A stretch of DNA of 37,482 nucleotides from a virus: positions 1 to 37,482 of IMG/VR virus record IMGVR_UViG_3300032309_000421; one strand, given 5' to 3'. This document shows, piece by piece, positions 3,227-37,482 of the stretch (positions are counted from its first letter, which is position 1; each line of letters begins with the position of its first letter). The translations under genes and the position numbers were made by a program. A model generated the notes under the pieces. The model was not told the origin of the DNA, did not search any database, and saw only the letters and a list, made by a program, of their open reading frames with translations.

Positions 3227-3465
3227 ATAAAATACTAGAAGATAGAGAGGTTCAATATGGAGATGCTAGACGCAATTTCACTAATATTGGCATTGGTTGG
3301 GGAGCAATTCTTGGCATTGATTCTATTCCTGCTCATATTGTTGCCTTAATGTATGATTTTGGTAAAACAATTAGATGCACAGTAAATCCAGAACTAGAAG
3401 ATAGTTGGTTGGATAAAGAAGGATATACAAAATTAGGCAAAGAAATAATTACAAATGAGCCTTAA
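3211..3465 (+). CDS. DUF6378-like protein
   Basis: The product is 84 aa and matches a common small phage protein family (DUF6378-like). The pattern is ILEDREVQYGDARRNFTNIG, then WGAILG, then ALMYDFGKTIRC, a conserved NPELEDSWLDKEGY stretch and a terminal helix. Function is unknown. The YGD and DSWxDxxGY segments are the most conserved parts of the family as I remember it. It overlaps its neighbours on both sides, so it is co-translated with the HTH-like protein and the phosphoesterase. Confidence 0.68.
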   Translation: MSSKINKILEDREVQYGDARRNFTNIGIGWGAILGIDSIPAHIVALMYDFGKTIRCTVNPELEDSWLDKEGYTKLGKEIITNEP

Positions 3466-4489
3466 AGATAAATTTGAAGAACTGCCCGAAGGTATTGAAT
3501 CATCAGATGTAAAAGAATTACGGAATGCTTTATTGCGCGTACAAAAACAGTTAAAGCAAGCCAAGGAACGCACCGAAGATCTTGTTCACACAACACAACA
3601 GGCAGCCTATGATGCCATGCTTACATTTGGAAAAATTACACCAGTACAACAACCGTCACCAGATAAAAGAAACGCAAAACCTGAAGTTGCTTTATGGCAC
3701 ATGACAGATTGGCAAGGAGCAAAACGGACACCCTCTTACAACAGCGAGGTAATGCGCAAAAGAGTTTTAGAGTTTTGTGAAAAAGCCGTACGCATTACAG
3801 ACATACAGCGCAAAGATCACCCAGTTAAAGAAGTATTTGTTTGTTTTGGTGGCGACATGGTTGAAGGTTTATTTAATTTTCCTGGTCAAGCGTTTGAAAT
3901 TGATGCAACTTTATTTGAACAATATGTAACTGTATCCAGGTTAATTGTTGATGTAGTGCGCCACGCGTTAGCAAACTATGAAAAAGTTACGGTAGTTCCT
4001 GAATGGGGTAATCACGGCAGAATTGGATCTAAACGCGACAATGTACCTAGGTCAGACAATTTTGACCGCATGTGTTATGAGTTTGCAAAGCAATTATTAC
4101 AAGATGAAAAGCGTTTAACATGGCAAGATTGCCCAGAAGATATACAACGAATTGAAATTGGTAATTATCGCGCATTATTAATTCACGGTGATGAAGTAGG
4201 CCGTAATGGTTTTGCATCACCTACCGCAATTGTTGGACATGTTTCTCGCTGGCTATCGGGTTCTTATCCTTGGCATTTTAGAGATTGTTATATTGGGCAT
4301 TACCACACTCATAATGAATGGGCGCTGCCAAACGGATTAGGTTCTGTATATCAAACAGGATCAACTGAATCAGATAACCGCTACGCAGGAATTATGTTGG
4401 CTGCTAGCGCAACACCGTCACAGCGTTTGCATTTTATTGATCCCATTAAAGGCCGTGTTACAGCAGCATATAAAGTTTGGCTTGATTAA
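3455..4489 (+). CDS. Calcineurin-like metallophosphoesterase
   Basis: The product is 344 aa, with an N-terminal coiled helix (about residues 18-50) and a metallophosphoesterase domain from about 76. All usual metal-ligand motifs are visible in order: TDWQ with Asp85 (in place of DxH), GGDMVEG with Asp134, GNHGR with Asn186 and His187, HGD with His244, and GHYHT with His282 and His284. This is the arrangement of Mre11/SbcD-like nucleases and related phage phosphoesterases. A role in phage DNA metabolism is likely, since the recombination genes follow downstream. The gene overlaps the one before by 11 bases. Catalytic residues look complete; the true substrate is not shown. Confidence 0.85.
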   Translation: MSLKDKFEELPEGIESSDVKELRNALLRVQKQLKQAKERTEDLVHTTQQAAYDAMLTFGKITPVQQPSPDKRNAKPEVALWHMTDWQGAKRTPSYNSEVMRKRVLEFCEKAVRITDIQRKDHPVKEVFVCFGGDMVEGLFNFPGQAFEIDATLFEQYVTVSRLIVDVVRHALANYEKVTVVPEWGNHGRIGSKRDNVPRSDNFDRMCYEFAKQLLQDEKRLTWQDCPEDIQRIEIGNYRALLIHGDEVGRNGFASPTAIVGHVSRWLSGSYPWHFRDCYIGHYHTHNEWALPNGLGSVYQTGSTESDNRYAGIMLAASATPSQRLHFIDPIKGRVTAAYKVWLD

Positions 4490-4651: not shown

Positions 4652-4762
4652 ATGAAATGTTGTGAGCATAAGTTTATGAAAAGGTGGTGTGAGTGCCATC
4701 ATTGTTGGGGTACAGGTTGTGATGTGGCAAACCAATACTTAATCACAAAGGAGATAAAATGA
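4652..4762 (+). CDS. Cys/His-rich mini-protein
   Basis: The product is 36 aa, beginning MKCCEHKF and including WCECHHCWGTGC. Five of its first 23 residues after Met1 are cysteines and there are several histidines, which suggests a metal-binding knuckle. GGGAGG lies 5 bases before the start and the stop overlaps the next start by ATGA, both of which support real translation. I do not recognise the family. Confidence 0.55.
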   Translation: MKCCEHKFMKRWCECHHCWGTGCDVANQYLITKEIK

Positions 4763-4896
4763 AATGCCCTAAATGTGATAGAGAAATGAGTACTGGTTAT
4801 GAGGATATTCTCAATTATGGTTTATCTAAACCTATTTGGTGTTGCCCTGATTGGAAAAATTGCAAATACACAATGTTACGAAAAAAGGCAACTTAA
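4759..4896 (+). CDS. Small zinc-ribbon protein
   Basis: The product is 45 aa with two cysteine pairs, CPKC at residues 3-6 and CCPDWKNC at about 28-35, which is a minimal zinc ribbon. It overlaps the preceding mini-gene by ATGA, and AAGGAG lies 5 bases upstream. Its stop overlaps the end of the convergent - strand gene by 4 bases, so the two transcripts collide here with no visible terminator. Function is unknown. Confidence 0.6.
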   Translation: MKCPKCDREMSTGYEDILNYGLSKPIWCCPDWKNCKYTMLRKKAT

Positions 4897-5495
4897 TCAT
4901 CATCATCAAGCGTTTCAACTAAACACTTGCCGTTGCGGTGTTGAATCCCTACTTGGACTTTACCGCCTGAGTAGGGATCGCGCTTTATTGCAATCTCTAT
5001 TGACCTAACTGCAATTGCAATTGCATCTTCATAAGAAGATTTTTCTTCTATTTGGTAAGCGTCTAAAGCGCCCATAGCGTAAGAACCGCCAGAGCCAGCA
5101 GAATAAATAGATCCCGAAGTGCGCTCCCACGCATAAGAAGAATCAATGCTATAAATTACACCCCGCACACCAATTAATAAATCATTATCAAAACTTGCAA
5201 TATCGCCATCATCTTTCATGTCATAACCAGAGGCAATAAAATGTTTGCGCATAGCAGGGATAAAAACTTTAGTAATAAATTTATCTAAATTCTGTTTAGG
5301 CGGGCGTGGAGGTGTCCAACCAAAAGCCAACAAATTTTGACCACGGCACAAGCCAGCCGAAGCAAACAGGTACCCATTGTTTAAGTTGATTTTGCCAGTT
5401 GGGGAGATGTCATATTTACGGAATGAATCGGTTGCTTGCGAATCAGCCGCAATAATGCACCAATCTTTATTCTGGATTGCTACCAGCGTGGTCAT
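4893..5495 (-). CDS. HslV/proteasome-beta-like Ntn hydrolase
   Basis: The product is 200 aa and matches the start of the HslV/20S-beta peptidase fold. After loss of Met1 the N-terminus is TTLVAI, so Thr2 is the predicted nucleophile. AADSQAT (Asp18) aligns with HslV GDGQAT, Lys35 in TGKIN lies one residue from the canonical Lys33 position, and SAGSGGSYAMGALDAY (132-147) matches the HslV GSGGxYAxxAxxAL segment. No propeptide is needed, as in HslV. It is the only - strand gene in the genome. No HslU-like ATPase is encoded here, so any unfoldase would come from the host, or the ring may act on unfolded peptides. GGGAGAGGG lies just upstream of the ATG on its strand. Proteasome-fold membership is well supported; substrate and role are unknown. 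Confidence 0.78.
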   Translation of the reverse strand: MTTLVAIQNKDWCIIAADSQATDSFRKYDISPTGKINLNNGYLFASAGLCRGQNLLAFGWTPPRPPKQNLDKFITKVFIPAMRKHFIASGYDMKDDGDIASFDNDLLIGVRGVIYSIDSSYAWERTSGSIYSAGSGGSYAMGALDAYQIEEKSSYEDAIAIAVRSIEIAIKRDPYSGGKVQVGIQHRNGKCLVETLDDDD

Positions 5496-5533
5496 CTAAG
5501 CCCTCTCCCTAGGCCCCTATTTTCTCATGCCAC

Positions 5534-5603
5534 GCGCCCCTTGGGGTGCTTGTAATTGACGGTGGTGGTCTATACCCTAATCCTACCCAGAGCCAAAAGG
5601 CTC
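5534..5603. promoter_or_regulatory. Divergent intergenic region with two hairpins
   Basis: This lies between the - strand Ntn hydrolase and the + strand recombination genes, so it must hold both promoters. GCGCCCC (5534-5540) pairs with GGGGTGC (5543-5549, one G-U pair). TTGACG at 5556-5561 is a possible -35 box for the + strand, with only a weak TAATCC at 5578-5583 as -10. GAGCC (5590-5594) pairs with GGCTC (5599-5603) in the leader of the + strand gene. Promoter assignment is tentative. Confidence 0.4.
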
Positions 5604-5625
5604 AACAAATTATGGAGGATAGATT

Positions 5626-6189
5626 ATGGCTGGAAATTACGAAGGCTACGAAACCGCAGCAGAGCGGATTGTGCGAATTCATGCAGATCACAAAGATGTG
5701 CGAATTCATGCAAAGATTCTGGAAATTGTAAGAGATCCGCAAACATTACGCCCATTGCAATATGTTGTAGAAAGCAACATTTATTACGGTGATGTTTTAA
5801 TGTTTGTTGATGTTGCTGAAGAAATGGTTGGCAGTTCATTTGTAAATAAATCATCAGCCCTAGAAAACGCATCTACAAGCGCAACTGGAAGGGCGTTAAG
5901 CCTGGCTGGTTATTTAGGTACAGATCCAAATACAAAAAAACCAATTAGACCAACACAACAAGACATGCAAAAAGCATCAAGGGTTGAACAGCCTGCACCT
6001 AAAACCAAGCGCGAATTTACTGACGGAGAAATTGGGTTAGCAACTGCCGCGTTTGGACAGATTGAATCTGCAACAACAAAAGATGAATTAAAGGCAATTT
6101 ACAGAATTAATCTTGATCTATTAGAAGCAAAAGTAAATGGAGTTACATTGCTTGATGCAATAAACAAAAAGGCAGGAGGCTTAAAGTGA
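5626..6189 (+). CDS. ERF-like single-strand annealing protein (putative)
   Basis: The product is 187 aa. The central motif ENASTSATGRALSLAGYLG (about residues 84-102) matches the E-x-TSAxGRALAxxGY signature of ERF-type and related phage single-strand annealing proteins. The N-terminal half is a compact alpha/beta region and the C-terminal third (about 128-187) is a helical tail. It opens a block that also encodes a Cas4/RecB-like nuclease and a RusA resolvase, which fits phage recombination. GGAGG is 8 bases before the start. A 16-base direct repeat (5670-5685 and 5697-5712) duplicates the VRIHA segment in frame. The family call rests mainly on the central motif. Confidence 0.62.
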   Translation: MAGNYEGYETAAERIVRIHADHKDVRIHAKILEIVRDPQTLRPLQYVVESNIYYGDVLMFVDVAEEMVGSSFVNKSSALENASTSATGRALSLAGYLGTDPNTKKPIRPTQQDMQKASRVEQPAPKTKREFTDGEIGLATAAFGQIESATTKDELKAIYRINLDLLEAKVNGVTLLDAINKKAGGLK

Positions 6190-7431: not shown

Positions 7432-8096
7432 TTGATTTACAAGACATGGTGATTAAATCTCTTGGGGCTTATGACAGTCAAAGAGATAGATCTAAACAAA
7501 TAGAAATTGGGCCTAGCAGCATTGGAAGTTGTGCGCGTAGGGTCTATCACGACTTAAAACAAACGCCTAAAACTAACGATACTGAAAAACTAGCAGCAAT
7601 CTTAGGTACCTTTATCCATTCTGGTTTAGATAAAGCAATTAGGCGCAATGACCCATTTGAAGATAATTTTTTAATTGAGATTGAGGTAGCAGACGGAGAT
7701 CTTAAAGGGCATTGTGATTTATTTATTAAAGACATTGGTTTAGTTGTTGATTGGAAAACCACAACTAAATCAGGTATGCGTTATTTTGGATCAGATCAAC
7801 AGCGTTTCCAGATTCACACCTATGGTTGGCTATTAGAAAAAAACGGTTATGATGTAAAAGAAGTAGCCCTAGTAGGAATTCCCCGTGATGGCAAGATGCA
7901 AGACATACAAGTTATGCGTGAAAAATATGATCCAGCAATAGCCCAGCAAGGAATTGCTTGGTTAGATGGAATCAAACAAATAGTTGCAACTAATTCCCCT
8001 GCCCCAAGTCCAGAGAAATACGCAAAATGGTGTACAAACTATTGCCCGTATTTTGATAGAACAGGAGAAATAGGTTGCCCAAGTATGACCAAGTAG
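7428..8096 (+). CDS. Cas4/RecB-like PD-(D/E)XK exonuclease with Fe-S cysteines
   Basis: The product is 222 aa. The nuclease core is visible in order: GTFIHSG with His64, GHCDLF with Asp97, VVDWKT with Asp108 and Lys110, and QIHTYGWLL with Gln128, which is RecB motif III. Cys35 near the N-terminus and Cys202, Cys206 and Cys217 at the C-terminus form the four-cysteine set that holds a 4Fe-4S cluster in Cas4 and AddB-type nucleases. It probably resects DNA ends to feed the upstream annealing protein. There is no CRISPR array in the window, so a recombination role is the simpler reading. The gene overlaps the whiB-like gene by 22 bases. Confidence 0.85.
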   Translation: MIDLQDMVIKSLGAYDSQRDRSKQIEIGPSSIGSCARRVYHDLKQTPKTNDTEKLAAILGTFIHSGLDKAIRRNDPFEDNFLIEIEVADGDLKGHCDLFIKDIGLVVDWKTTTKSGMRYFGSDQQRFQIHTYGWLLEKNGYDVKEVALVGIPRDGKMQDIQVMREKYDPAIAQQGIAWLDGIKQIVATNSPAPSPEKYAKWCTNYCPYFDRTGEIGCPSMTK

Positions 8097-8428
8097 ATTG
8101 GGATAATGCAGCGTGTATTGGTATTTACACAGATTTGTTCTATTCAGTAGAAGAAGAAAGATCTGTAATGCAATATCAATACATAAATACATTACGCAGC
8201 ATTTGTGCCGCCTGCCCTATTTGGCGTGATTGCTTAACTTACGCTTTTGCACATGAGCAATACGGAGTTTGGGGAGCGCTTACATCTATGGAAAGAATTG
8301 CAATAAAAGATCCAACAAAAAATCCACATCAGAGGCGCAGAGCATTATTAAATTTACATGACCAAGGAATTTCTTTTGCAGAGATTCAAGAGTGTATGAT
8401 CGCGGCCCAGGCGAAAGAGGCAAAATGA
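8075..8428 (+). CDS. WhiB-family iron-sulfur transcription regulator
   Basis: The product is 117 aa. It has the four WhiB cysteines, Cys14, Cys44, Cys47 and Cys53 (C-x29-C-x2-C-x5-C), followed by the GVWGALT turn (residues 64-70; usual form G[VI]WGG). WhiB proteins bind a 4Fe-4S cluster and act with the sigma factor; they are specific to Actinobacteria and their phages. The start is a TTG at 8075 supported by AGGAG 7 bases upstream; the nearby ATG is in another frame. The C-terminal tail (80-117) is basic then helical and likely contacts DNA. Phage copies may redirect host transcription. Confidence 0.9.
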   Translation: MPKYDQVDWDNAACIGIYTDLFYSVEEERSVMQYQYINTLRSICAACPIWRDCLTYAFAHEQYGVWGALTSMERIAIKDPTKNPHQRRRALLNLHDQGISFAEIQECMIAAQAKEAK

Positions 8429-14134: not shown

Positions 14135-14224
14135 ATGGACAGCAAACTAAATCGGTGCGCTTATGGCGCTTGGCATTACGGAGAAAAACTCTGCGAAGTA
14201 TGTAATTTGGGGGCTAAGGAGTAG
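14135..14224 (+). CDS. 29-residue CxxC mini-protein upstream of the transglycosylase
   Basis: The start at 14135 has AAGGGGGAAATC directly upstream; the frame is open back to an ATG at 14066 but without a ribosome binding site. The product contains RCAYGAWHYGEKLCEVC, a possible zinc site (Cys8, His14, Cys20, Cys23). Its TAG stop is in the same frame as the transglycosylase frame that follows, separated from it by only the amber codon and one proline codon. Confidence 0.48.
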   Translation: MDSKLNRCAYGAWHYGEKLCEVCNLGAKE

Positions 14225-14227
14225 CCC

Positions 14228-14668
14228 GTTAAGTTTGTAGCACAAATCCTTTTAGCGGCCCTTTTAGCGGTTGGATTTGTTGCTGGCACACCTGCTGCTG
14301 CCGAAGCCCCACATTTAACGCAAAAACAAAAAATAAAAGCGTTAGAACCAAAACAGTATGCGCTCGCCATGGTTAAAAAACAATGGAAACCTGATGCGCA
14401 AAAACAGTTTGCCTGTTTGCATCAACTCTGGACAAAAGAAAGCAACTGGCGTTCAAATGCTTTAAACAAGAGTTCAGGTGCATTTGGAATTGCCCAGTTT
14501 TTGCCGACTACTTGGGCTAACTACAAATATCCATACAAACCAAAAGATCCACAAATTCAAATTGATGCTGGATTGCGTTATATTTACAAACGCTATTCCA
14601 CACCTTGCCACGCTTGGGCTTTTTGGCAAAAGAAAGCAGGCCCAGATTTGATCGGTGGCTGGTATTGA
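14228..14668 (+). CDS. Secreted lytic transglycosylase-like protein, non-canonical start
   Basis: Starting at 14228 the frame encodes 146 aa: a textbook signal peptide (KFVAQILLAALLAVGFVAG then TPAAAEA) and a transglycosylase-like domain with Glu71 in KESNW, GAFGIAQF and LPTTWANY. Such enzymes cut the glycan strands of peptidoglycan. AAGGAG (14216-14221) sits 6 bases before 14228, but the codon there is GTT, not GTG or ATG; the first in-frame ATG (14369) would delete the signal peptide. One base change would give a normal start, so this may be a variant, a sequencing error, a rare start codon, or amber read-through from the mini-gene upstream. The domain call is firm; the start is uncertain. 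Confidence 0.75.
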   Translation, partial: VKFVAQILLAALLAVGFVAGTPAAAEAPHLTQKQKIKALEPKQYALAMVKKQWKPDAQKQFACLHQLWTKESNWRSNALNKSSGAFGIAQFLPTTWANYKYPYKPKDPQIQIDAGLRYIYKRYSTPCHAWAFWQKKAGPDLIGGWY

Positions 14669-22172: not shown

Positions 22173-24161
22173 ATGGCTGAAGGTTTTGTTCCACCACAAG
22201 AAGTAAGAAACAATGCCAAGCGCGGATTAGAATTACGCAGGGAGCATGGTAGAGGCGGAACAGAAATTGGTGTTGCCCGCGCCCGTTCTTTATCAAATGG
22301 ACAATCACAACCTTTAAAAACAATTAACCGTATGGTTTCTTATTTTGCTCGCCATGAGGTTGATAAGAAAGGTGAAGGCTGGGGAAAAGACAGCGCAGGT
22401 TACATTGCTTGGCTATTATGGGGTGGTGACGCTGGTAGATCTTGGGCAAACAGGATTGCAAGAGAAAACAAAAAGAAAACAACGGAGAAATCAATGATAA
22501 ATGATTTAACAACAGCCTTTTTTGAAATTGTTAAGGCCGACAGAAATGATGATGGCACTTTAATGGTTTACGGCAAGGCAACAGATGATTCATTAGACAT
22601 TGACCAACAAATCTGTGATCCAACTTGGCTAGATGATGCAATGCCAGAGTGGTTTAAGTCAGGCGGCAATATCCGCGAACAACACAGCAATATTGCAGCA
22701 GGCGTAGCAAAAGAATATGAGAAGAAGAAAGACGGACATTACATACATGCCCTTGTTGTAGATCCAGTTTCAGTTAAGAAAGTAGATACAGGCGTACTAA
22801 AAGGTTTCTCTATTGGAATCAAAAACCCACGCGTAGTCCGCGATCAGAAAGCAGCCAACGGGCGCATAATTGCAGGCAAAATTGTTGAGGTCAGTCTTGT
22901 AGATAGGCCCGCAAATCCAAATTGCCAATTAGTCCTGGCTAAATCTGCTGAGGGTCAGAGTAATTTATTCAAGGTAGAAGAATTAATTGAGAAGGAAGAA
23001 AAGAAACCAGATTACGCGGCAGTCAATCGCGGTGGAGAAGGTTCAGAGCCAGCCGATAAAGAATTATACAACCGTGTAAAACAAGAGGCTAAAGAGAAAT
23101 TTGATGTTTACCCATCTGCTTACGCAAATGCCTGGTTAGTCCGCGAATACAAGAAGCGCGGTGGAACTTACAAAAAGAAAACAAACAAGGGGGCAGATAC
23201 CCTAGAATTACCTTACATAACTGAGGGAGAAGCCATGAGCAATTTAGTAGATGACATAATTGAGTTATCTAAATCTTATGCTGGTGGCGATTTACTAAAG
23301 TTTGATAGAAATACTTATGACAATGCTAGACAAGCGTTGGCACAATTAATAGCAATAGAAGCACAAGAAATGAATGAGGGAAGCAATGAAGAATCTTCTC
23401 TTACACACCTAATAGCCGCAGTCCATCACCTTTTTGCTTGGTATCAGGGTGAGGAAGCAGAGGGAGAAACAATGGAAAACGAACAAATTGATATGGCGGC
23501 AGGTTCAAAGAAGATGAACATGCAACCAACTAAAGGCGAATCCAAAAAAGAATTTATGGATCGCTGCAAAATGAAAGGCATGAACGATAAAGAAGCCGCG
23601 ATTTGTGCTGATAAATATTACAAAGAAGCACACAAACTTTTTGGTGATGATGACATGGATAAAAAGAAAAAAGAATCCATGAAATCTACTGATGCAGAAG
23701 CAACAGAAGTTGTAGAAGCAACAGAAGAAACAACAGAGGAAGCACCTGTTGTTGAAGAAAAGAAAGAAGAAGAAGTAGTAGCAGTTGAAGAAACTCCTGC
23801 TGAACAAGTTTCTGAGGAAAAAATATCTTCAGAAGAAGTAGAAGCCATAGTGGAACAGGCAATAAAGAGCGCAACACAGTCAATTAAAACGGAGATTGCT
23901 TCTCTAGTGTCCGCAAAAGAGGCGGCACTGAGTAAAGCAGTAAGTTTAGAATCTGAGTTGGCAATTGCTAAATCTCTTGCGGTGGCTGGTGGTCCAAAAC
24001 GAACAGGTACATCAGTGGCTCAGTCCAATGATCTGTTTGTTAAAGCCGCTACCTACAAAGCGAAAGCACAAGCAACAACCGATCCCGTACTTGCCAAGGG
24101 TTACAAGCAATTAGCAGATGAATTTTTTGCTAAAGCGAGTGAACCAGACGCAACTAAATAA
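22173..24161 (+). CDS. Prohead protease / scaffold fusion with accessory domains
   Basis: The product is 662 aa with several parts. Residues about 1-100 are a phage domain with NGQ..LKTINRMVSYFARHE and GYIAWLLWGGDAGRSW. About 110-270 is the XkdF/HK97-type maturation protease, with His171 (REQHSN) and Ser213 (KGFSIG) as likely catalytic residues and EVSLVDRPANPNC. About 285-335 resembles DUF5872 (DYAAVNRGGEGSEP, YPSAYANAWLVREYKKRGG). Then come a helical part, a KKEFMDRCKMKGM segment, a Glu/Val-rich low-complexity stretch (about 505-560) and a coiled tail that reads as scaffold. It lies directly before the capsid gene. The Glu-rich part should unfold easily and be removed on maturation. Confidence 0.78.
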   Translation: MAEGFVPPQEVRNNAKRGLELRREHGRGGTEIGVARARSLSNGQSQPLKTINRMVSYFARHEVDKKGEGWGKDSAGYIAWLLWGGDAGRSWANRIARENKKKTTEKSMINDLTTAFFEIVKADRNDDGTLMVYGKATDDSLDIDQQICDPTWLDDAMPEWFKSGGNIREQHSNIAAGVAKEYEKKKDGHYIHALVVDPVSVKKVDTGVLKGFSIGIKNPRVVRDQKAANGRIIAGKIVEVSLVDRPANPNCQLVLAKSAEGQSNLFKVEELIEKEEKKPDYAAVNRGGEGSEPADKELYNRVKQEAKEKFDVYPSAYANAWLVREYKKRGGTYKKKTNKGADTLELPYITEGEAMSNLVDDIIELSKSYAGGDLLKFDRNTYDNARQALAQLIAIEAQEMNEGSNEESSLTHLIAAVHHLFAWYQGEEAEGETMENEQIDMAAGSKKMNMQPTKGESKKEFMDRCKMKGMNDKEAAICADKYYKEAHKLFGDDDMDKKKKESMKSTDAEATEVVEATEETTEEAPVVEEKKEEEVVAVEETPAEQVSEEKISSEEVEAIVEQAIKSATQSIKTEIASLVSAKEAALSKAVSLESELAIAKSLAVAGGPKRTGTSVAQSNDLFVKAATYKAKAQATTDPVLAKGYKQLADEFFAKASEPDATK

Positions 24162-36281: not shown

Positions 36282-37085
36282 ATGAAAAGTTATTATTTTT
36301 TGGCGGGCTTACCCCGCACAGGCAACACATTACTTTCTAGTATATTAAATCAAAACCCCCTTATACATAGTTCCCCGTTAAGTCCAATAAACGGAATATT
36401 TTGGCAACATGAGCAAGTAATCCAAAACGCGGAACATGTCAAAAGATTAGATGATAAAACTGGATTAAATAATGTTATGGCTAAACTATTAGATAATTAT
36501 TATGACAACATTACAAAGCCAGTCATTATAGATAGAGAAAAATCGTGGGGAATTGCCCCTAACTTTAATATGTTACAAAAATATGTAACACCTAATCCTA
36601 AAATTATATTTACTACAAGACCCGTAATTGAAATACTTACCTCTTTTATTAACATTATTCCTAAAGAAAATTCAAGTGTAGATTTAGAAATGTCGCAAAG
36701 TGAATGGACTTACAAAAATTATTTAACCCTAAACGATAACCGTTGTGATTATCTTATGCGACCTTATGGGCAGATAGATAGATTGCTTACAACAGTAAAC
36801 ATGATGCAACAAAACAAAGACAACTTTTGTTTAATTAAATATGATGAAATAATAAATACCCCGCAAGAGGCTATGGATAAAATCTATAACTTTTTAGAAT
36901 TACCTAACTACACGCATGATTTTAATAATATAGAAAAAGTAGAAATAGATAATGATGTAATGGCAGGGCTACCACCAAACATGCACGAAATTAGACCGCA
37001 ACTTAAAAAAATTAGTCAAGACCCTAAAGAGGTTTTGTCAGAATATGTAATTAGCAAATACTCAAACATAGGCTGGGAGGCGTAA
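36282..37085 (+). CDS. Sulfotransferase
   Basis: The product is 267 aa with the PAPS-binding motifs in place: the 5'-phosphosulfate loop LPRTGNT (Leu10-Thr16) after a strand (YYFLAG), and the 3'-phosphate motif IIFTTRPVIEILTSF with Arg113 and Ser121. KYDEIINTP and the C-terminal YNFLELPNY are also typical of the family. It transfers sulfate from PAPS to an acceptor, which the sequence does not identify. GCGGAGG is 5 bases upstream. Two sampled 60-base rows in the gene (36481 and 36601) have only 15 and 14 G+C, against 24 in a capsid row (24661), so recent gain is possible. The stop overlaps the next start (TAATG). Confidence 0.88.
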   Translation: MKSYYFLAGLPRTGNTLLSSILNQNPLIHSSPLSPINGIFWQHEQVIQNAEHVKRLDDKTGLNNVMAKLLDNYYDNITKPVIIDREKSWGIAPNFNMLQKYVTPNPKIIFTTRPVIEILTSFINIIPKENSSVDLEMSQSEWTYKNYLTLNDNRCDYLMRPYGQIDRLLTTVNMMQQNKDNFCLIKYDEIINTPQEAMDKIYNFLELPNYTHDFNNIEKVEIDNDVMAGLPPNMHEIRPQLKKISQDPKEVLSEYVISKYSNIGWEA

Positions 37086-37482
37086 TGATAATACAAATAA
37101 TAGGACAGGCTGGTTCTGGTAAAACAATATTGGCGGGAGCGTTAGCAGACCGCATAAATGCTATACACATAAACGCAGATAAAGTTAGGGCAGGGTTAAA
37201 CAAAGATTTAGGTTTTGAGTTAAAAGACCGTATTGAAAATGCAAGACGACTTGGCGAATTAGCAAGACTATTAGATAACGAAATAGTTATAGTAGATTTT
37301 ATATGCCCAACAAACGAAACTAGAGAGGCGTTTGGCAAGCCTGATATTTTAATTTGGGTTAATAGAATTGAGCAAGGGCGATTTGAGGACACAAATAAAA
37401 TGTGGCAAGACCCAACAGATTGTGATTTAGAAATTAAAGCAGGGCTAACGGTAGATCAAGAAGTGCAACTTATTATTAAACA
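37085..37482 (+). CDS. APS kinase / nucleotidyltransferase fusion, N-terminal part (continues at 2)
   Basis: The N-terminal domain is APS kinase (CysC-like): Walker A GQAGSGKT (residues 7-14), NADKVRAGLNKDLGF (30-44; the usual DGD is NAD here), DRIENARR (48-55) and VIVDFICPTNETR. It should phosphorylate APS to PAPS, the sulfate donor used by sulfotransferases. The frame continues without a break across the repeat into position 2 and ends at 469. The ATG overlaps the sulfotransferase stop, so donor synthesis and use are co-translated. The AlaAsp in place of GlyAsp in the kinase motif is a change worth noting but may not abolish activity. Confidence 0.85.
   Translation, partial: MIIQIIGQAGSGKTILAGALADRINAIHINADKVRAGLNKDLGFELKDRIENARRLGELARLLDNEIVIVDFICPTNETREAFGKPDILIWVNRIEQGRFEDTNKMWQDPTDCDLEIKAGLTVDQEVQLIIK
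37360..37482. repeat. Terminal overlap, right copy
   Basis: This is identical to bases 1-123. Joining the copies restores one 247-codon gene and a circular map. Confidence 0.93.

Follow-up and report, generated by a model that had tools for sequence, protein, structure and literature searches.

One of the closest described systems is BPH, the bacterial proteasome homologue (PDB 5OVS/5OVT/5OVU), which is encoded by a chromosomal bacterial gene and forms a tetradecamer. BPH has neither a propeptide nor an unfoldase, its pore loop is elongated and very acidic, in contrast to the short linker of HslV, which carries basic residues, and it showed no activity in vitro towards peptides or casein (PMC5777263). 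Proteasome homologues of phages, including PPH and AAH, were described in 2021 as sequence clusters without an assigned function or AAA+ partner; no co-occurring AAA+ partner was found for any of the new homologues (Fuchs, Alva and Lupas 2021, PMC8665760). According to the same paper, no Actinobacteria-specific phage was found with AAH, and connectase demonstrates that proteasome homologues can turn into ligases. Isolates of PHROG 1040 (Microbacterium, Arthrobacter, Vibrio, Geobacillus, Moorella and other phages) encode proteins annotated as protease, peptidase HslV family or proteasome subunit.

The predicted peptidase considered here is encoded in the window, i.e., the whole stretch of 37,482 nucleotides that was analysed (IMG/VR record IMGVR_UViG_3300032309_000421). 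It has the same catalytic residues as the PHROG 1040 proteins and, like them, no propeptide. It is 19–36% identical to those of the isolates and, unlike them, is part of a metagenomic group whose acidic pore loop is constant in length. With BPH it shares the absence of a propeptide and of a partner unfoldase as well as the long acidic pore loop, at an identity of ~20%, though the phage protein is known from its sequence and a monomer model. The superfamily and the active-site layout are common with HslV (ClpQ) of HslUV. Unlike HslV, the peptidase has a long acidic pore loop instead of the short linker, scores far under the HslV cut-off, and is accompanied by HslU neither in the phage nor in 61 sampled genomes of the likely host family. 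The fold (Z 19) and the D-x-Y-S-G-G motif (beta5) are common with 20S proteasome beta subunits, from which the peptidase differs in scoring far under the archaeal and bacterial beta cut-offs and in having neither a propeptide nor an alpha subunit. PPH and AAH are likewise phage proteasome homologues without propeptide or AAA+ partner; PPH comprises ~140 residues and lacks the second helix (H2), whereas the window peptidase has 200 residues and retains this helix. It also has the first helix pair, which connectase lacks.

The peptidase gene and its family

The locus consists of the following features (window coordinates).

3455–4489, plus strand: exonuclease-like gene (PHROG 284); 84 related contigs share it as a conserved neighbour of the peptidase gene
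4652–4762, plus strand: Cys-rich ORF of 36 aa, with an ATGA overlap with the next ORF
4759–4896, plus strand: Cys-rich ORF of 45 aa, convergent with the peptidase gene, the stops overlapping in TTAA
4893–5495, minus strand: proteasome-like threonine peptidase (PHROG 1040, PF00227) of 200 aa, assigned by profile matches, conservation and model
5181–5228, minus strand: elongated acidic pore loop, residues 90–105 (GYDMKDDGDIASFDND), a low-confidence segment after the second model helix (model, alignment)
5487–5492, minus strand: codons Thr2-Thr3; Thr2 is the predicted nucleophile, exposed on Met1 removal (Thr2 conservation)
5496–5625, no strand: intergenic region from which the peptidase gene and the gene at 5626 diverge, holding the peptidase ribosome-binding site
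5626–6189, plus strand: divergent neighbour (PHROG 11717), conserved in the window's gene-order group

The peptidase gene has an ATG start and a TAA stop, its product starts with MTTLVAIQNKDWCIIAADSQ, and the ribosome-binding site GGGAGAGGG lies upstream at 5501–5509 (minus). Since Met1 directly precedes Thr2, the peptidase has no propeptide, which bears out the view of the earlier note, a reading of the letters alone, that none is needed. Thr2, Asp18 and the GSGGSYA segment (134–140, with the GSGG motif) are present as that note described them, and so are Lys35, Gly48 and Asp173.

The peptidase matches Pfam PF00227 (Proteasome) at 4e-12 (46.6 bits, cut-off 22.4) and, over residues 1–187, the PHROG 1040 "peptidase HslV family" profile at 1.9e-22. 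20S beta5 chains in the PDB match the sequence at 4e-8, and the DPYSGG motif resembles proteasome beta5. A profile search matches HslV, beta5 and BPH, with E-values from 1e-11 to 3e-8. A close match to HslV, as originally proposed, does not hold: the scores are 20 bits for HslV TIGR03692 (cut-off 157.75), 46.9 bits for 20S beta TIGR03634 (cut-off 224) and 16.3 bits for 20S beta TIGR03690 (cut-off 191.9), i.e., far below the HslV, archaeal-beta and bacterial-beta cut-offs; the DPYSGG motif is beta5-like, and the pore loop is BPH-like. Judged by its sequence, the peptidase is not HslV; the profiles classify it as a proteasome-superfamily Ntn hydrolase of an already known phage family.

Homologues in other actinophages, which the earlier note had suggested looking for, were found. 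An IMG/VR scan gave 67 relatives, and 67 more contigs came from two scans whose N-terminal queries left out the pore loop, 134 in total. None of T2, D18, K35, G48, G134, G136 and D173 varies among 27 aligned phage homologues, down to ~33% identity, and S135 is kept in at least 90% of them. T2 occurs in 71 and D18 in 70 of 72 full-length sequences that form an independent set, so that the conservation of Thr2, Asp18 and the lysine expected by the earlier note is observed (all three in the 27 homologues, Thr2 and Asp18 also in the set of 72). The two sequences without D18 are L116, whose N-terminus was incomplete when read, and L090, a natural homologue with Glu in place of the catalytic Asp18. 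Against the five closest relatives, dN is 0.011–0.022 and dS 0.13–0.54; dN/dS is ~0.04–0.11 against close relatives, and the peptidase is thus under strong purifying selection. The PF00227 and PHROG 1040 matches together with dN/dS place the gene far beyond chance, as a genuine one. Chromosomal relatives were found in none of 84,980 bacterial and archaeal species genomes scanned with the two best patterns of the family, and the plasmids scanned contained none.

Predicted structure, pore loop and unfoldase

The AlphaFold2 model of the peptidase, built with 24 homologues, has a pLDDT of 84.8 and a pTM of 0.83. It adopts the Ntn fold of the proteasome-beta type, on which the earlier note had made its proposal depend. 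Among PDB structures it is matched best by 20S beta subunits (Z ~19, rmsd 3.2–3.6, ~180 residues; Foldseek, VIA-align) and by BPH (5ovt, TM values of 0.70/0.76). HslV is absent among the 50 Foldseek/VIA matches listed, which does not argue for a different fold.

Helices 50–59 and 70–88 of the model are followed by a low-confidence loop at the place where the BPH pore loop sits. In the set found without using the loop there are 30 distinct versions of it; each comprises 16 residues by the measure applied, and the net charge is always −3 to −5. A DMKDDGD motif, apparently invariant in the first 24 aligned homologues, proved to be an artefact, YDMKDDGD having been one of the search patterns; after a new search using queries without the loop, the exact motif was missing in 67 of 104 loci. 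Only length and net negative charge are constant in the pore loop.

The ends of the window carry an exact 123-bp terminal repeat (1–123 and 37360–37482); therefore the phage genome is circularly closed and complete, at ~37.36 kb. An AAA_2 match that would indicate an unfoldase of the HslU/ClpX type is absent from this closed genome, and no AAA match over the cut-off was found in it, the sole one being an APS-kinase-like P-loop below the cut-off. One gene runs across the contig ends (37085–37482 joined to 1–469) and combines, in this order, an APS-kinase-like P-loop domain with a nucleotidyltransferase-like one (PHROG 10255). The phage also has a sulfotransferase-family gene (36282–37085; PF13469, 1.6e-13). 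AAA_2 (HslU/ClpX-type) over the cut-off was found in 0 of 28 phage records. Other clades do have AAA hits, among them, as a candidate for a phage-encoded partner, the 'AAA family ATPase' of DSL-LC01, which was rejected: it adjoins a gene annotated as cobalamin biosynthesis protein and is not HslU.

The most satisfactory explanation, and one we regard as rather likely, is that the peptidase would be a self-compartmentalising, BPH-like threonine peptidase working without a dedicated unfoldase. It draws on what was computed for the protein: family, catalytic set, absence of a propeptide, fold, purifying selection, acidic loop and no AAA+ match over the cut-off. Removal of Met1 would expose Thr2, and the subunits could form a homo-oligomeric ring, probably a double one, that encloses the active sites. 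As has been suggested for BPH, the acidic pore loops, and not a dedicated unfoldase, may govern entry. During infection, the peptidase could then cleave either substrates that are unfolded or peptide-like, or else a single specific protein of the host or the phage. Possible tasks are removal of host proteins, late disposal of unfolded or toxic polypeptides, and trimming of a phage protein.

Gene order and possible roles during infection

The earlier note took the peptidase gene for the sole reverse-oriented one. It is the only well-supported minus-strand gene, although other minus ORFs exist: those of at least 60 aa overlap plus-strand ORFs, except for a 64-aa ORF at 14176–14370, which is partly within a gap and has no support. 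A tail-to-tail collision with two zinc-ribbon genes was also proposed. The stop of the peptidase gene (4893–4895) does share the palindrome TTAA (4893–4896) with that of the 45-aa ORF (4759–4896), but the designation "zinc ribbon" is unproven, the two Cys-rich ORFs (4652–4762 and 4759–4896) having CxxC-type motifs and no Pfam or PHROG match. As to the supposed flanking hairpins, one at 5590–5603 is conserved, but it belongs to the divergent gene at 5626, in whose leader it lies 5' of the ribosome-binding site; on the far side of the peptidase gene folding is no better than that of shuffled sequence. The stem of the hairpin shows compensatory changes in relatives (GAGCC/GGCTC, GGATTC/GAATCC, GGTTCC/GGAACC, GGAGGTC/GATCTCC, GGGCG/CGCCC). 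Promoter-like sites near the peptidase gene are not above chance.

In the window's gene-order group the peptidase gene and the exonuclease-like gene (PHROG 284) run in opposite directions in all 35 contigs, and so do the peptidase gene and the gene at 5626 in all 28 contigs having both. In the sister group the peptidase gene follows that same exonuclease gene and is co-directional with it (49 of 49 contigs); in one of these, L191, its start overlaps the end of a DUF6378-like gene. In the gene tree the co-directional group forms a single clade next to the window-group sequences; therefore the orientation changed while the position stayed. Two further clades have other neighbours of the peptidase gene, mostly of the same direction as the gene itself, and beyond the local neighbours no gene recurs across clades.

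Several variants of this arrangement were observed. L041 carries a peptidase of another clade at a window-type locus with the reverse orientation kept, which suggests gene replacement. The space between the exonuclease and peptidase genes is a variable spot, with insertions in L006 (8575–9750), L013 (3522–4358) and L015 (6869–7591) that encode a DNA cytosine methyltransferase-like gene or another gene of 240–280 aa. In the sister group a minus-strand gene of 320–390 aa adjoins the peptidase gene (PHROG 1221 in L191, 12156–13331).

The strongest rival has the peptidase serve host takeover or counter-defence by removing a specific host protein, its gene being kept as an accessory one under separate regulation. 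The gene's own direction of transcription throughout the window group and the strong purifying selection speak for it. Nevertheless, the orientation is fixed in the window group only, and independent control, which the earlier note assumed for this gene, is rejected as a family trait in view of the co-directional sister group. A conserved partner gene across clades was not found, nor was a match in a defence-system library, which covers defence and not counter-defence. This role seems possible at best; it overlaps the BPH-like explanation, which does not specify a substrate.

Slightly less probable, and on balance unlikely, is the processing of phage proteins (e.g., virion or scaffold) during assembly. 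Its basis is gene order in relatives: in the phages LanE43AprE7 (E7) and LanE43AprF5 (F5) the homologue (178 aa in F5) is encoded directly downstream of the portal gene in a structural operon, in the window's sister group the gene follows lysin/exonuclease genes, and in another clade it precedes the terminase by a few genes. In the window phage, however, the peptidase gene is outside the head module, and a separate capsid maturation protease is present: residues 111–276 of the ORF 22173–24161 match annotated head/capsid maturation proteases, up to 2e-19. Pfam and PHROGs do not recognise this ORF as such, and the model of the segment has a pLDDT of only 35, so that the assignment rests on annotated phage homologues. 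The protease domain (H and GFS motifs) is apparently fused to a coiled-coil, scaffold-like C-terminus. Since the phage has its own capsid maturation protease, head maturation is no open job for the HslV-like protein.

The likely host and the meaning of the gene

The window phage probably infects an acI (Nanopelagicales) actinobacterium, as suggested by WhiB, low GC, the E7/F5 homologues and weak DNA similarity. The phage encodes a WhiB protein (8075–8425, 4.6e-12), a mark of actinophages from which the host is predicted to phylum only (PMC12143481), and GC is 37–44%. E7 and F5, isolated on the acI strain Planktophila LanE-43 (PMC10202952), encode peptidase homologues (PHROG 1040) that are only ~30% identical to the window peptidase. 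Long DNA matches between the window phage and acI genomes were not found; a transglycosylase-like phage gene shows 72–78% identity over ~70–110 bp in nine acI genomes.

PF00227 was found in 0 of 8 acI genomes, LanE-43 included. Among 151 Nanopelagicaceae genomes, 146 lack it and five have it as a gene pair; in these (G044, G053, G059, G071 and G082) the paired proteasome locus has a proteasome ATPase nearby. The same five are the only ones of 61 sampled Nanopelagicaceae with a proteasome ATPase over the cut-off. HslU is absent from all 61, and AAA_2 proteins occur in all 61, nearly all of them of ClpC and ClpX size. Since most likely hosts have neither a proteasome nor HslU, the peptidase probably does not act by joining the former and cannot rely on either.

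These counts constrain the borrowing of a host unfoldase, one of the earlier suggestions, by leaving only ATPases of the ClpC/ClpX type generally available. Docking of the peptidase on ClpX or ClpC, which would thereby be redirected, agrees with the presence of AAA_2 proteins in every sampled genome and with the lack of an unfoldase in the phage. However, ClpX and ClpC normally dock on ClpP, which has a different fold, and HslU is missing in 61 and the proteasome ATPase in 56 of the 61 genomes. The phage homologues surveyed in 2021 likewise had no co-occurring AAA+ partner (PMC8665760), and docking appears quite improbable. Least probable of all is a specialised or inactive Ntn hydrolase, e.g., a connectase-like transpeptidase instead of a general peptidase: connectase is a proteasome homologue turned ligase (PMC8665760) and BPH is inert on model substrates (PMC5777263), but the full proteasomal catalytic set is conserved in the peptidase and the first helix pair, missing in connectase, is present.

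A self-compartmentalising, BPH-like peptidase thus remains the preferred reading. Phage proteasome homologues are already known (Fuchs, Alva and Lupas 2021, PMC8665760); added here are a large freshwater actinophage group, an acidic loop constant in length and charge, the history of gene orientation and the contrast with proteasome-less hosts. Planktophila LanE-43 and its phages E7 and F5 represent a cultivable pair, with the gene in the phages and PF00227 not found in the host genome. With no such gene in LanE-43, any proteasome-type activity of infected cells must be phage-derived, and a clean test is possible. The acidic pore loop, of constant length in independently found members, is a second testable feature. 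It may be, and we put this forward only tentatively, that a widespread freshwater actinophage group brings a self-sufficient proteasome-like compartment into hosts that lost every proteasome-family peptidase. If true, the infected cell would gain a proteolytic activity without a counterpart in the uninfected host.
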